From Treponema sp. (GTDB taxonomy: Bacteria > Spirochaetota > Spirochaetia > Treponematales > Treponemataceae), in the NCBI GenBank assembly GCA_017453705.1, contig JAFTEK010000060.1:1-24423 (forward strand): a stretch of DNA of 24,423 bases, in the 5' to 3' direction. Shown here one piece after another: positions 521-24,423 of the stretch (the first letter of the stretch is position 1; every line of letters begins with the position of its first letter). Both the position numbers and the translations under genes were made by a program. The notes beneath the pieces are model-generated. The model was given only the letters and a program-made list of their open reading frames with translations. It was not told the DNA's origin and did not search any database.

Positions 521-600
521 ATTGCGAATTCATCCGAATTCGGTAAAAATTCTCAATAGTATTGCGAATTTATCCAAATCCGGTTATAATTCTCAATATG
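521..600 (+). repeat. Two tandem 40-bp promoter-like units ending at an ATPase start codon
   Basis: Units 521-560 and 561-600 follow each other without a gap and differ at about seven of 40 positions. Each begins ATTGCGAATT and ends with AATTCTCAAT plus two bases; these ends are near-perfect inverted repeats of each other (9 of 10). The first unit also holds the palindrome CCGAATTCGG. The second unit contains a full sigma-70-like promoter and its last three bases are the ATG of the ATPase gene. The first has the same -35 hexamer but a weaker -10 (AAAAAT). Confidence 0.85.
562..590 (+). promoter_or_regulatory. Predicted leaderless promoter of the first DUF4143 ATPase
   Basis: TTGCGA (562-567), a 17-base spacer and a consensus TATAAT (585-590). 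The start of transcription is expected at 597-598 and the ATG is at 598, so the transcript should begin at the start codon. There is no Shine-Dalgarno sequence upstream of 598. Confidence 0.65.
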
Positions 601-1779
601 ATCACGAGGGAACGATACGTCAGGGAAGTCCGGGGCTTCTACAACAGCGACCTCATAAAGATTTTCACCGGAGTGCGCCGCTCTGGGAAGTCCATAATCA
701 TGGGGCAGGTCGCCGATGAAATCCGCCGGAAGTCCGACAACATAGTTTACCTGGACTTCGATGACCGGGCGGTGACGGCCTCGGTGCAGTCGTGGCAGGA
801 CATTGTTTCCTATGTCGCAGGCCACCGAAAAGAGGGGCTGTGTTACGTCTTTCTGGACGAAGTGCAGGAAATCGAGGGCTGGCAGTTCGCATGCCGCTCG
901 CTCAGGCGTGAAAACTGCTCCGTGTTCATAACCGGATCAAACTCCAAGCTGCTCTCCAAGGAATTCACCAAGGAGCTTTCAGGCAGGTATGTCTCGTTCA
1001 GGATACGCCCCTTCGTCTACAGGGAGCTGGTGGAGTATGCAGGTCAGCTGGGAAAGGAGATGACCGTCACGGACTATCTTGTCTGGGGCGGATTCCCCAA
1101 ACGGTTGGAATTCAACAGCACGGAAGAACAGCGGCGGTACATCAACGACCTGGATACCACTATCGTACAGAACGACATCATCAACCGCTATAAGATACGG
1201 AAGGCGGATGAGTTCAAGAAGCTCGCCAACTTCATCCTTATCTCAAACTCACGCATCTGCTCGGCCAATTCCATCGCGGACTATATGAAAGGAAACGGGA
1301 CAAACTGCACGGCGAACACCGTCCAGAAATGGATAGGATACCTTGCCGAGGCATACATCATCGACCAGATTCCCCGCTACTCACGCAAGGCAAAAAGGGA
1401 ACTTGAACAGACCCGCAAGCTCTACAACAGCGACGTTGCCCTGAATTCCATCCGGGTCACGAACGGACGCTTTGACCTTACACACAACCTTGAGAACATC
1501 GTGTACAACGAACTGCTGTACCGGGGCTACAGCCTGTCGGTCTATGATAACAACGGGCGCGAGATAGACTTCCTTGCCGAGAAGGACGGCAAGCGGTATT
1601 ACGTGCAGGTCGCCTACAGCGTGGAGGACGAGAAAGCCTACGAGCGCGAATTCTCGGCATTCGGCTCGATTAGCCAGATAGACAAGAAGATACTCATCAC
1701 CAACGACGAGCTGGACTATTCGACGAGCAACGTGGAGCACATCCGCCTGAAGGACTTCCTGCTGGCGGACTCACTGTAG
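598..1779 (+). CDS. AAA ATPase with C-terminal DUF4143 domain
   Basis: A 393-residue member of the large AAA_14/DUF4143 ATPase family, whose cellular role is not established. Visible motifs: Walker A GVRRSGKS (25-32), Walker B VFLDEVQ (84-90), a sensor-like ITGSNSKLLS (111-120), GGFP (164-167), then a winged-helix-like stretch and the C-terminal DUF4143 region. This region has the PD-(D/E)XK-like core REIDFLA (321-327) followed by YYVQVAY (335-340 area). The usual catalytic E-x-K is replaced by Q-V-A, so nuclease activity looks unlikely. An upstream in-frame ATG at 562 exists, but it lies inside the promoter and repeat; family members normally begin with a short M-I-x-R-x-x-Y, which matches the start at 598. 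The gene stands alone between gyrB and an envelope gene and has its own promoter in a tandem repeat. Such genes are often present in many copies per genome and are probably transferred. Confidence 0.88.
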   Translation: MITRERYVREVRGFYNSDLIKIFTGVRRSGKSIIMGQVADEIRRKSDNIVYLDFDDRAVTASVQSWQDIVSYVAGHRKEGLCYVFLDEVQEIEGWQFACRSLRRENCSVFITGSNSKLLSKEFTKELSGRYVSFRIRPFVYRELVEYAGQLGKEMTVTDYLVWGGFPKRLEFNSTEEQRRYINDLDTTIVQNDIINRYKIRKADEFKKLANFILISNSRICSANSIADYMKGNGTNCTANTVQKWIGYLAEAYIIDQIPRYSRKAKRELEQTRKLYNSDVALNSIRVTNGRFDLTHNLENIVYNELLYRGYSLSVYDNNGREIDFLAEKDGKRYYVQVAYSVEDEKAYEREFSAFGSISQIDKKILITNDELDYSTSNVEHIRLKDFLLADSL

Positions 1780-14030: not shown

Positions 14031-14746
14031 AACTGCTGGGAGTTCCTGTGGACGTATGCCGCCCATCGGACTTTGAACAAGCCATTGTCTCCCTCATGGA
14101 GAAAGAAGGACCCAAGCAGATTGTATTCCTGTCCATCTGGGATCTGCTAAAGGCAATGGGCAAGAGCGAGTTTGCCAAGGCGGTCAAGCAGGCGGATTTG
14201 ATTCTGCCGACATCCAAGAGCATCATAAGCGGGGCCAGGTTCCTCAAGCTTACCGTACCTACCCGTTGGAATCCATTTGACAGCGTAGTGAACATTATGA
14301 CCCTGCTGGAAAACCGCTACAAGTCAATTTATCTGTTGGGCGGACACAAGAAAACCCTGCTTGCGGCGGAGAGAAACGTCCGCATGACATTCAAAAGCCT
14401 GCAGATTGTTGGTCGCTATGTCGGCTACTATCCAAAGAGCGAGGATGCCGCTGTAATCGAAGCCGTCCGCAAGTCCTCCCCTTCACTTGTCATAATGAGC
14501 GACGGACTAAAGGACAAGTTCTGCTGGTTCCATAACAGAAGGGAAAACTTTAGCACCAGTATGTTCCTGTATTACCCCGATGCCGTGGCGATATTCAGCG
14601 AACGCAAGGCTCACGTAAAAAAAGAAACATTCGACAAGGGATTGGAGTTCCTGCCGGAAGCCATACGGTCCCCCCTCAAGTTCTTTCTGGTTTTCCCCTT
14701 CCTTCACTACAAGCTGCTCCTTGTCTGGCACCGCCTGTTTGACTAG
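14012..14746 (+). CDS. Divergent WecG/TagA/CpsF-family glycosyltransferase-like protein
   Basis: A 244-residue relative of WecG/TagA enzymes, which transfer an N-acetylaminosugar to a lipid-linked acceptor at the inner membrane. Recognisable: the opening ELLGVPVDVCRPSDFEQAI, SIYLLGGHKKTLLAAERNV, LQIVGRYVGYYP, and a hydrophobic basic C-terminus (SPLKFFLVFPFLHYKLLLVW) like the membrane-binding tail of the family. Two hallmark motifs are altered. The D-G pair after the first strand is replaced in LILPTSKSIISGAR. The G-x-P-x-Q-E-x-W motif reads SDGLKDKFCWF. Activity is therefore uncertain; it may be a non-catalytic or differently specific member. Its start lies within rsmE, implying coupling. Role in envelope polysaccharide is only a guess from the family. 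Confidence 0.72.
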   Translation: MEIERIELLGVPVDVCRPSDFEQAIVSLMEKEGPKQIVFLSIWDLLKAMGKSEFAKAVKQADLILPTSKSIISGARFLKLTVPTRWNPFDSVVNIMTLLENRYKSIYLLGGHKKTLLAAERNVRMTFKSLQIVGRYVGYYPKSEDAAVIEAVRKSSPSLVIMSDGLKDKFCWFHNRRENFSTSMFLYYPDAVAIFSERKAHVKKETFDKGLEFLPEAIRSPLKFFLVFPFLHYKLLLVWHRLFD

Positions 14747-19483: not shown

Positions 19484-19501
19484 GAGGGGGCAAGTACCGT
19501 G

Positions 19502-19640
19502 TAGTGTGTCTGGCACACACTATGTAATGTGTCTGGCTCACACTATGTAATGTGTCTGGCTCACACTATGTAATGTGTCTGGCTCACACTATGTAATGTG
19601 TTTGGCTCACACTATGTAATGTGTTTGACTCACACATTGC
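19502..19640 (+). repeat. Tandem 23-bp array, six copies, with inverted arms
   Basis: GTGTCTGG or GTGTTTG cores start at 19506, 19529, 19552, 19575, 19598 and 19621, an exact 23-base period. The middle copies are almost identical; the outer two differ. The outer units fold best: AGTGTGT/ACACACT (19503-19521) and AATGTGT/ACACATT (19618-19638), while middle units keep TGTG/CACA arms. The array fills the gap between the patatin gene and the fabV promoter. The period is not a multiple of three, and there are no unique spacers, so it is neither coding nor CRISPR. Confidence 0.88.
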
Positions 19641-23082: not shown

Positions 23083-23240
23083 GGAGATTTTGTGATGAAC
23101 GACTCTTCAAAATGTGGAGATTTTGTGATAAATGACCCTTCACAACATGGAGATTTTGTGATAAAAACAGCTTCCAAATACGGAGATTTCGTGATAGAAT
23201 ACCCCTAAAATGAAGGAGATTTTGTGAGGAGCTTTATCCC
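23083..23240 (+). repeat. Tandem 33-bp array (five copies) leading into the second ATPase gene
   Basis: The core GGAGATTTTGTGAT, or a variant with one or two changes, starts at 23083, 23116, 23149, 23182 and 23215, an exact 33-base period. The core is followed by about 19 less conserved bases, often containing CTTC and AAA. The last copy changes after GGAGATTTTGTGA to GGAGCTTTATCCC and runs directly into the ATG at 23241. GAGGAG at 23226-23231 in that copy is the ribosome-binding site. TGTGATAAA in copies 2 and 3 resembles an extended -10 box, and TAAAAT at 23206-23211 is another candidate. Read on the minus strand the array is open and would encode F-I-T-K-S-P repeats. Confidence 0.88.
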
Positions 23241-24423
23241 ATGCCGGAAAGCAAGCTGAAAAGAAAGATATATAGTGAATTGCTGAAATGGAAGAATGAA
23301 TATGCTCCCGAATATGCCTTGTTCTTAAAAGGGGCACGGCGTGTAGGAAAGACGACCGTAGCGGAAGACTTTGGCCGCAATGAGTACAGGTCCTTCGTCA
23401 CAATCAACTTCCAGTCAGCGAATGATACGATCCGGGATTTGTTCGTGAACAGCCTGCTTGACCTGGAATACTTTTATAATGTCATCCAGATGCAATACGG
23501 CGTAAGGCTCCAGGAAAGGGAGTCCTTGGTCATATTGGACGAGATACAGCTTTTTCCCCTTGCGAGGCAGGCGCTCAAAAGCCTGCTCGCCGACGGCCGC
23601 TACGATTTCATAGAGACAGGTTCCCTTGCGGGCATTACAAAAAAAACAGAACGGGAGGAGATACTGATTCCGTCGGAGGAATACGCCATTGAGATGTTCC
23701 CCCTTGATTTTGAGGAGTTCCTGTGGGCTATGGGCGATGAGATGACGATGCCCATACTGCGGGGCAGCTATACCAATCTTAAGGCTTTGGGCAGCCTGCA
23801 CAAGGATGTCTTCCGCCGCTTCAGGGAATATATGTGCGTCGGCGGAATGCCCCAGGCGGTCGTAAAGTACGCGGAAAAAAAGGATTTCGAGGCAGTCGAT
23901 TTCATCAAGAAAGAGATTCTCGCGCTGTACAGGAATGACATCAAGAGCCAGGAAGAAGAGAACGGCGGCTACATCGGGAACATCTTGGACAACGTTCCTT
24001 CCGAGCTTTCCAAGCATGAGAAGAGCAGCAGCTTCAAACTGTCCCATATAAACAAGAATGCCAGGTACAGGGAGTACGGCGGCCCCCTGCGCTGGCTGGA
24101 AGAGGCCATGATTGTGAATGTGGCGAGGAGTGTCTCCGACCCCAGCCCCGCGCTGACGCTCGATTTGGATGACGAAAGGTTCAAGTGCTATTTGCTGGAC
24201 ACCGGGCTCCTCATAAACCTGAGCTTCGGCGACGGTTCCTACATGGACAATGACTTTTACAAGGCGATTCTGACGGACAGGCTTCATGTCAACGAAGGGA
24301 TGTTCGTGGAGAACGTCGTCGCGCAGTGCCTCCGCTCCAACGGGCACAAGCTCCTTTTCTATGTGGAATATGATGCCAAGGGCAAACCGCTGATGGAGAT
24401 AGACTTCCTGATGCGGAAGGACA
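23241..24423 (+). CDS. AAA ATPase, DUF4143 type, 3' end outside window
   Basis: At least 394 residues of a second AAA_14/DUF4143 ATPase; the frame is open to the right edge. Motifs in order: Walker A GARRVGKT (31-38), Walker B LVILDEIQ (96-103), sensor-like IETGSLAGI (124-132), FPLDFEEFLWAMG (153-165), GGMPQAV (201-207), a winged-helix-like region, DTGLLINLSFGD, and near the cut end the start of the nuclease-like core, MEIDFLMRKD. The family function is unknown. It differs clearly from the gene at 598-1779 (another subgroup with the G-S-L-A-G-I sensor and a longer insertion). The ATG at 23241 has GAGGAG nine bases upstream and follows the last unit of a 33-bp tandem array. A long open frame on the opposite strand (23415-24347) is its shadow. 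Confidence 0.9.
   Translation, partial: MPESKLKRKIYSELLKWKNEYAPEYALFLKGARRVGKTTVAEDFGRNEYRSFVTINFQSANDTIRDLFVNSLLDLEYFYNVIQMQYGVRLQERESLVILDEIQLFPLARQALKSLLADGRYDFIETGSLAGITKKTEREEILIPSEEYAIEMFPLDFEEFLWAMGDEMTMPILRGSYTNLKALGSLHKDVFRRFREYMCVGGMPQAVVKYAEKKDFEAVDFIKKEILALYRNDIKSQEEENGGYIGNILDNVPSELSKHEKSSSFKLSHINKNARYREYGGPLRWLEEAMIVNVARSVSDPSPALTLDLDDERFKCYLLDTGLLINLSFGDGSYMDNDFYKAILTDRLHVNEGMFVENVVAQCLRSNGHKLLFYVEYDAKGKPLMEIDFLMRKD

Follow-up and report, generated by a model that had tools for sequence, protein, structure and literature searches.

Among the regulators described so far, RptR of Type I restriction islands appears to be the nearest worked example that we found for the arrangement reported here. 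RptR is a self-repressing defence regulator that acts on three direct repeats lying over its promoter, two intact repeats are needed for full repression, and the repressor is a separate 9-kDa protein with a conserved site (PMC12255303). Unlike RptR, the family considered here has as its presumed repressor the large ATPase itself, and its site diversifies between orthologs. Mobile defence genes autoregulated from operators in their own promoters, and falling into specificity groups, are also familiar from the C proteins of restriction-modification systems and from the SsoII methyltransferase. The C proteins are small, separate proteins, whereas here an AAA+/STAND-like ATPase appears to carry the recognition helix. 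As with RptR and the C-protein autorepressors, the repeated sites overlap the gene's own promoter, assigned here by consensus, and their diversification between orthologs would resemble that of phage immunity groups.

The genes in question correspond to PDC-S01, a candidate defence gene of PADLOC that combines the Pfam domains AAA_14 and DUF4143; its abundance has been described (PMC12988326, PMC13356809), and most PDCs of the core defensome still await validation (PMC12988326). The available portions of these two descriptions mention neither regulation nor a DNA site nor a recognition segment. Few candidate defence proteins are more common than those of DUF4143/PDC-S01, which occur in bacteria and archaea yet are uncharacterised. 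A search of the titles and abstract openings of openly available papers found no description of operators for the DUF4143/PDC-S01/COG1373 family.

The stretch of Treponema sp. DNA analysed here (24,423 nucleotides, referred to as the window) holds two such genes on the forward strand: one at 598..1779, encoding 393 aa, and one of another subfamily at 23241..24422, which runs off the window end. In both, AAA_14 and DUF4143 score above the gathering cut-offs (97.3/66.9 and 80.1/54.5 bits vs. cut-offs of 27/28.1), and both are matched by the PDC-S01 models of PADLOC (E 4.4e-117 for the gene at 598 and 2.3e-88 for that at 23241). The first-pass annotation had described two head-to-tail 40-bp units that end at the ATG of the first gene (598-600), and Tandem Repeats Finder indeed reports an array at 520-598 with 2 copies and a score of 123. 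The unit ends are inverted, as had been noted, with arms TTGCGAATT / AATTCTCAA. The two units are two tandem dyads and hence four half-sites: repeat finding and a genome pattern search place unit 1, a dyad with a 17-bp loop, at 522..556 (half-sites 522-530 and 548-556), and unit 2 lies at 562..596 (half-sites 562-570 and 588-596). Unit 2 overlaps a predicted promoter on the forward strand (562..590), for which direct reading gave the same elements as the annotation, TTGCGA (562-567), a 17-bp spacer and TATAAT (585-590). Because only 7 nt separate the -10 element from the ATG, a leaderless or nearly leaderless transcript is plausible. Within the 2.28 Mb of the own genome (~72% complete), the two window sites are the only exact matches to the pattern TTGMGAATT-N17-AATTCKCAA, and its backwards-read control had no match in the same sequence. 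In the closely related locus L261, whose protein is 93% identical, the arms are the same and the loops have diverged. The placement of a unit directly at the start codon, which the annotation had emphasized, holds for the nearest relatives of the window and not for the other orthologs, in which the last unit mostly ends ~13-110 bp upstream; in orthologs from records other than Treponema it is mostly followed by a leader.

Among the best 80 of 581 loci in a scan of genome contigs, 31 were 53-62% identical to the window gene, and the record titles of these 31 name Clostridia, Bacilli, Lachnospiraceae, Fibrobacter, Treponema, Succinivibrio, Saccharibacteria and others. In 274 genomes of the window's own family a search found 24 matches, spread over 21 genomes; the window itself, L010 and L011 are among them. 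A metagenomic search for orthologs gave 7851 protein matches. Horizontal transfer is the simplest reading of this distribution, keeping in mind that many of the records are metagenome bins. Nearly all orthologs carry tandem dyads, usually two but in some cases three, arranged in a single geometry with outer ends at 0, -35, -41 and -75/-76; array and gene are thus found together in relatives, and the suggestion that each ATPase travels with its own array is borne out by operators that accompany the gene across phyla. When four half-sites at this set spacing were scored without a motif prior in 54 loci (the window and relatives 53-93% identical to it, from many phyla by record title; L277, a broken copy, left out), 51 scored above every one of the 40 shuffles made from the locus itself; of the regions upstream of other genes in the same loci, 8 of 84 did. 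The raw score reached 44 or more in 50/54 loci vs. 2/84 controls, and 40 or more in 53/54 vs. 15/84, where the control starts were taken from open reading frames and not from a gene caller and such simple statistics are inflated by related sequences. The three loci in which the geometry test failed were L124, its near copy L137 (both with GCGCA half-sites) and L128.

Tandem Repeats Finder misses dyads with diverged loops, and geometry-based tests were therefore used in its place; as the only test it was dropped. Upstream of 29 relatives from a protein search it reported an array ending at the start in L011 only, and in L020 a 22-bp array that lies 70-125 bp upstream of the homologous start. 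An early impression that L133 was without an array was likewise overturned when the geometry scan located its operator further upstream. A generic score for direct or inverted repeats exceeded z 4 in 19/32 orthologs, 13/47 homologs of 32-38% identity and 21/186 controls. These 47 more distant genes, also among the best 80 of the 581 contig-scan loci, show no enrichment of direct repeats alone (fraction with z >3 0.09 vs. 0.07 in controls), and inverted repeats are enriched (0.32 vs. 0.11). A dyad arm score of at least 10 within 120 bp of the start was found in 27 of the 47, compared with 17 of 119 controls. Most of the dyads listed for them end ~25-60 bp before the start, and in several, e.g. 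L181 and L166, palindromes repeating at ~40 bp can be recognized by eye.

The half-sites have the approximate form CTG-variable-ATTT, with a core that differs between loci; the cores seen include GGACA, GAAAG, GAAAAC, GCAAA, GACAG, TTTAAG, CCGAG and GCATAA. Within a locus the half-sites change together: in 32 of 34 orthologs (all but L133 and L137; for two loci the anchors were placed manually), the gene-proximal core matches the other three at 4.88 of 6 positions on average, whereas shuffling the loci gives 3.03 (sd 0.19, z ~10), and none of 20,000 permutations scored as high. The operator also changes with the protein. When protein similarity was compared with operator similarity by windowed partial correlation over 31 loci, the peak fell on residues 232-252, with a modest r of 0.25. 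Column by column, in 27 non-redundant loci and with operator bases numbered from 0 in the 11-base half-site, the highest z of 248 variable columns (11.8) was that of column 224 against base 5, followed by columns 57 (z 7.7), 163 (7.2) and 240 (6.6, base 3). In 51 rows representing 49 different proteins, residue 224 (codon 1267-1269) is Arg in all 14 rows with C at base 5 (C5) and in none of the other 37. Residue 240 (codon 1315-1317) pairs with base 3 as N-A 24 times, T-G 8, H-C 7, N-C 4, P-T 3 and M-G 2, with T-A, S-T and K-C once each. Arg is a familiar partner of C:G, and Asn of A:T, in protein-DNA contacts.

In a tree from which residues 199-262 were omitted, C5 and Arg224 each changed three times, and the independent pairs agree (two of two on the starred branches, with three pairs available on all branches), numbers too few for a sign test; for base 3 and residue 240 the pairs are never opposed and often show no difference. 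Column 57 predicts C5 almost as well as 224 in leave-one-out (50/51 vs. 51/51) and fails to mark the informative case, L135. This locus is a natural swap: it has Arg224 and TTTACA, whereas its two sisters have Lys224 and TTTAAG. Of the 99 columns at which L135 differs from both sisters, six carry a residue that 60% or more of each of the other two C5 clades share, and only at column 224 is this residue present in every C5 row and in 0/37 others. Among loci fetched once the rule was known, 20 of 20 distinct genes fit it (19 of them within the 51 rows, and gene 1 of L327 scored by eye), with an independent weight well below 20 since most are close relatives; the only Arg224 among them (L279) is also the only GGACA operator. 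In L133, Lys224 and Pro240 pointed to a TTTAAG operator, a prediction only half blind, as the sequence had been viewed before the scan. The operator class thus tracks protein residues across orthologs, which agrees with the earlier expectation that arrays would match the clade of their own gene.

The co-varying residues fall in a segment (codons 199-262, 1192..1383 on the forward strand) that is probably a winged helix that reads DNA, as suggested by the co-variation and by a weak profile match to an archaeal STAND-type ATPase, PDB chain 2fna_A, which we take to be SSO1545. It was the only chain with E <0.01 in two profile searches (E 3.5e-4 and 1.2e-3), and the match spans the ATPase up to profile residue 265, although in one search no single stretch passes alone. 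STAND ATPases carry a GxP/GxxP motif after the ATPase core, and G164, G165 and P167, invariant in 80 sequences, fit this motif. At the C-terminus, by eye, the window subfamily has E322 and D324, then Q337-V-A, with Lys absent (codons 322-339), where other DUF4143 proteins show ExK and L287 of the second subfamily reads EIDF...IEVK. Gln337, invariant in the 80 sequences, replaces the expected catalytic Glu of the ExK motif, and nuclease activity of the window subfamily is doubtful for that reason.

Directly upstream of the second gene lies, as had been stated, a tandem array of another period and sequence; Tandem Repeats Finder detects a 33-bp array at 23083-23227. It consists of five 14-bp boxes, GGAGATTT(T/C)GTGA(T/G), that start at 23083, 23116, 23149, 23182 and 23215, an exact 33-bp step, and occupy 23083..23228. 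The two window genes differ in their arrays because they belong to two subfamilies, each with its own geometry: 14-bp boxes at steps of 31-36 bp, nearly always 33 or 34, were present in 29 of 29 upstream regions of the second subfamily (L282-L310; L311, with too little sequence, left out). The box score was above all 30 own shuffles in 29/29, compared with 15/111 controls, of which 8 score at least 20; in 7 of those 8 the control gene seems to be a divergent neighbour that shares the array. Together with the 51/54 vs. 8/84 of the first subfamily, these counts provide the enrichment of tandem repeats over control genes that the first-pass annotation had proposed to look for. The boxes vary by clade, and with overall similarity removed (28 loci, L303 left out) box similarity tracks residues 259-285 of L287 best of all windows (r 0.38-0.40). 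As residues 232-252 of the window protein align with 262-282 of L287, this repeats the first-subfamily result in another geometry; residue 224 itself is a gap in that alignment. Across loci the copy number of the arrays ranges from 2 to 5.

Many members of the family can share a cell. The window's own genome (2.28 Mb on 393 contigs, 72% complete) has 23 DUF4143 matches, 21 of them over the cut-off, on 21 of the 393 contigs. Sixteen genes had a start that could be chosen, the rest being fragments or lacking a clear one; Tandem Repeats Finder placed an array within 61 bp of the start in 11 of the 16 and within 25 bp in 10, with periods of 22-40 bp and differing sequences. In other genes it missed repeats that are visible by eye, such as three palindromes, CGGTATATCG, upstream of L051. 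On 20 control contigs picked by number (93 kb), arrays with a period of at least 15 outside reading frames occurred on L099 only, which carries two adjacent 23-bp arrays and one 46-bp array at the contig end. In six genomes with 3-6 second-subfamily copies, all 24 genes read had an array, 4 of the 24 being weak (score <19, about that of the best shuffles elsewhere; the scan had no shuffles of its own), and by eye boxes within one genome differ, except for the similar pair L324/L325. Moreover, genome G187 has two adjacent genes with different operators, TGAAAACTTT and TTG(C/A)GAATT, and the three first-subfamily copies of G085 (L264, L279, L281) have operators of three classes.

With respect to the promoter, -35 and -10 elements each matching at least 4/6 positions occur at fixed places of unit 2 in 21 of 32 loci and of unit 1 in none. 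The common order in unit 2 is half-site L2, -35, half-site R2, -10, with the promoter assigned by consensus only. A -35 at the common position is absent in six GGACA-class loci and in the window; in the window the hexamers are shifted onto the half-sites, which overlie the whole -35 and a portion of the -10. The restriction of promoter hexamers to the gene-proximal unit (21/32, vs. 0/32 for the other) speaks against the copy-number-tuned promoter that had been offered as one interpretation, while the other, an operator and DNA target of the gene's own product, gains support because operator sequence and protein residues change together.

We consider it likely that each AAA_14-DUF4143 (PDC-S01) gene is a self-contained unit, autoregulated through private, phased operators bound by its own protein. 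The protein would comprise, in order, an N-terminal P-loop ATPase, the probable winged helix and a PD-(D/E)XK-like C-terminus, and would bind, as an oligomer, at least two phased copies of its operator over its own promoter. The two dyads of the window subfamily, ~41 bp apart, would correspond to four helical turns, and the direct 14-bp boxes of the other subfamily, ~33 bp apart, to three. In most first-subfamily orthologs, the half-sites of unit 2 would lie upstream of the -35 and between -35 and -10, and with this arrangement as with that of the window, bound unit 2 should exclude RNA polymerase; autorepression is for this reason favoured. Lying on the same face of the helix roughly four turns further upstream, unit 1 would suit cooperative binding. 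Most likely the protein switches its own gene off, and autorepression is, from the placement of the sites, the best-supported sign of regulation, ahead of activation. Since a single cell can hold many paralogs and the genes pass from phylum to phylum, operator and recognition residues would change together and keep the members insulated. A link to the ATP state, a trigger and a role in defence may also belong to the system.

Other uses of the same sites have to be weighed against private autoregulation. The ATPase might bind the arrays mainly as a platform for loading, storage or segregation, in the manner of centromeres or iterons, or as a nuclease target, with repression as a by-product. Phased multi-copy sites, two to five in number, would fit the assembly of an AAA+ oligomer; against this reading, unit 2 holds the promoter at fixed places in 21/32 loci, no further exact dyads are present in the own genome (2.28 Mb, ~72% complete), and cutting is doubtful with Gln337 at the position of the catalytic Glu. 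We regard this alternative as unlikely. It is far less probable still that the sites are read by a regulator encoded elsewhere, be it a host factor or a neighbour: the operators accompany the gene across phyla, adjacent paralogs have different ones, the window dyad is private within its own genome and the sites co-vary with residues of the ATPase itself, even though a genus-wide factor could in theory read a single class.

The array could also act in the transcript, as a hairpin or a repeated ribosome-binding site, and in the second subfamily the last box does often touch the ribosome-binding region. Since the arms of the first subfamily lie mostly upstream of the predicted transcription start, the direct boxes of the second do not pair with each other, and the sites co-vary with a probable DNA-binding segment, an RNA element seems highly improbable. 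The least probable explanation in our judgement is that a promoter was simply duplicated in tandem or copied by slippage, either neutrally or so as to tune expression by copy number. Variation from two to five copies is what slippage would produce, but it would hardly keep the arms while the loops diverge, as in L261, hold the spacing constant over many records or leave a good promoter in one unit only, and control genes seldom have arrays of this kind.

Autoregulation of each gene by its own ATPase, the reading that we prefer, has a wider form that we put forward tentatively, as possible rather than expected: the family may consist of mutually insulated, self-addressing immune switches, with a simple residue-base code, silence maintained by the ATPase state and by oligomerisation on the array, and release upon infection. 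If so, the code would read Arg224-C5 and, at 240, N-A, H-C, T/M-G and P-T, and orthogonal addresses would let many copies coexist, such as the 23 DUF4143 matches of the own genome. Already under the preferred reading, a probable defence gene would have its large ATPase as its own specific repressor. A private operator makes each gene directly assayable by gel shift or reporter, and the residue-base correspondences predict an operator for each protein, so that members not yet read could be matched to sites from sequence.

Copies of the operators on phages were considered and rejected: five dyad patterns representing four operator classes matched 0, 5, 3, 0 and 3 viral stretches, a chance level, as a scrambled palindrome matched 3. 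One viral contig (IMGVR_UViG_3300032007_003503, L338) has, near 14432, a single dyad, TACTGAAAACTTTTTC ... TGCAAAAGTTTTCACT, whose arms match those that the Treponema operators L267/L269 have in unit 1; it precedes an open reading frame that by eye resembles a terminase small subunit, and the locus gave no DUF4143-like match. We retain this extended match as a lead.

Several further arrays were observed in the own genome. Downstream of the first window gene, at 1811-1889, lies a 22-bp tandem array, GGAACCGGTCAGTCCCGCTCA, whose unit recurs on another contig (L046, 1169-1273) ~3 kb from a DUF4143 match. A 23-bp array, TGTAATGTGTCTGGCTCACACTA, with 5.9 copies at window positions 19500-19635, lies between patatin-like and enoyl-reductase genes and has no adjoining DUF4143 gene. 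The two adjacent 23-bp arrays of L099 (1014-1312) are upstream of a 1027-codon open reading frame, and at L053 (3317-3714) a DUF4143 gene has two neighbouring upstream arrays, one of 32 bp and another of 23 bp (8.1 copies). A dispersed 23-bp tandem family, CACCAGATARNGCTATCGTG, has 29 exact matches on 11 contigs (C19, C62, C76, C114, C229, C257, C269, C289, C299, C307 and C340 of G000), 5 of which carry a DUF4143 match, compared with 21 of 393 contigs overall.
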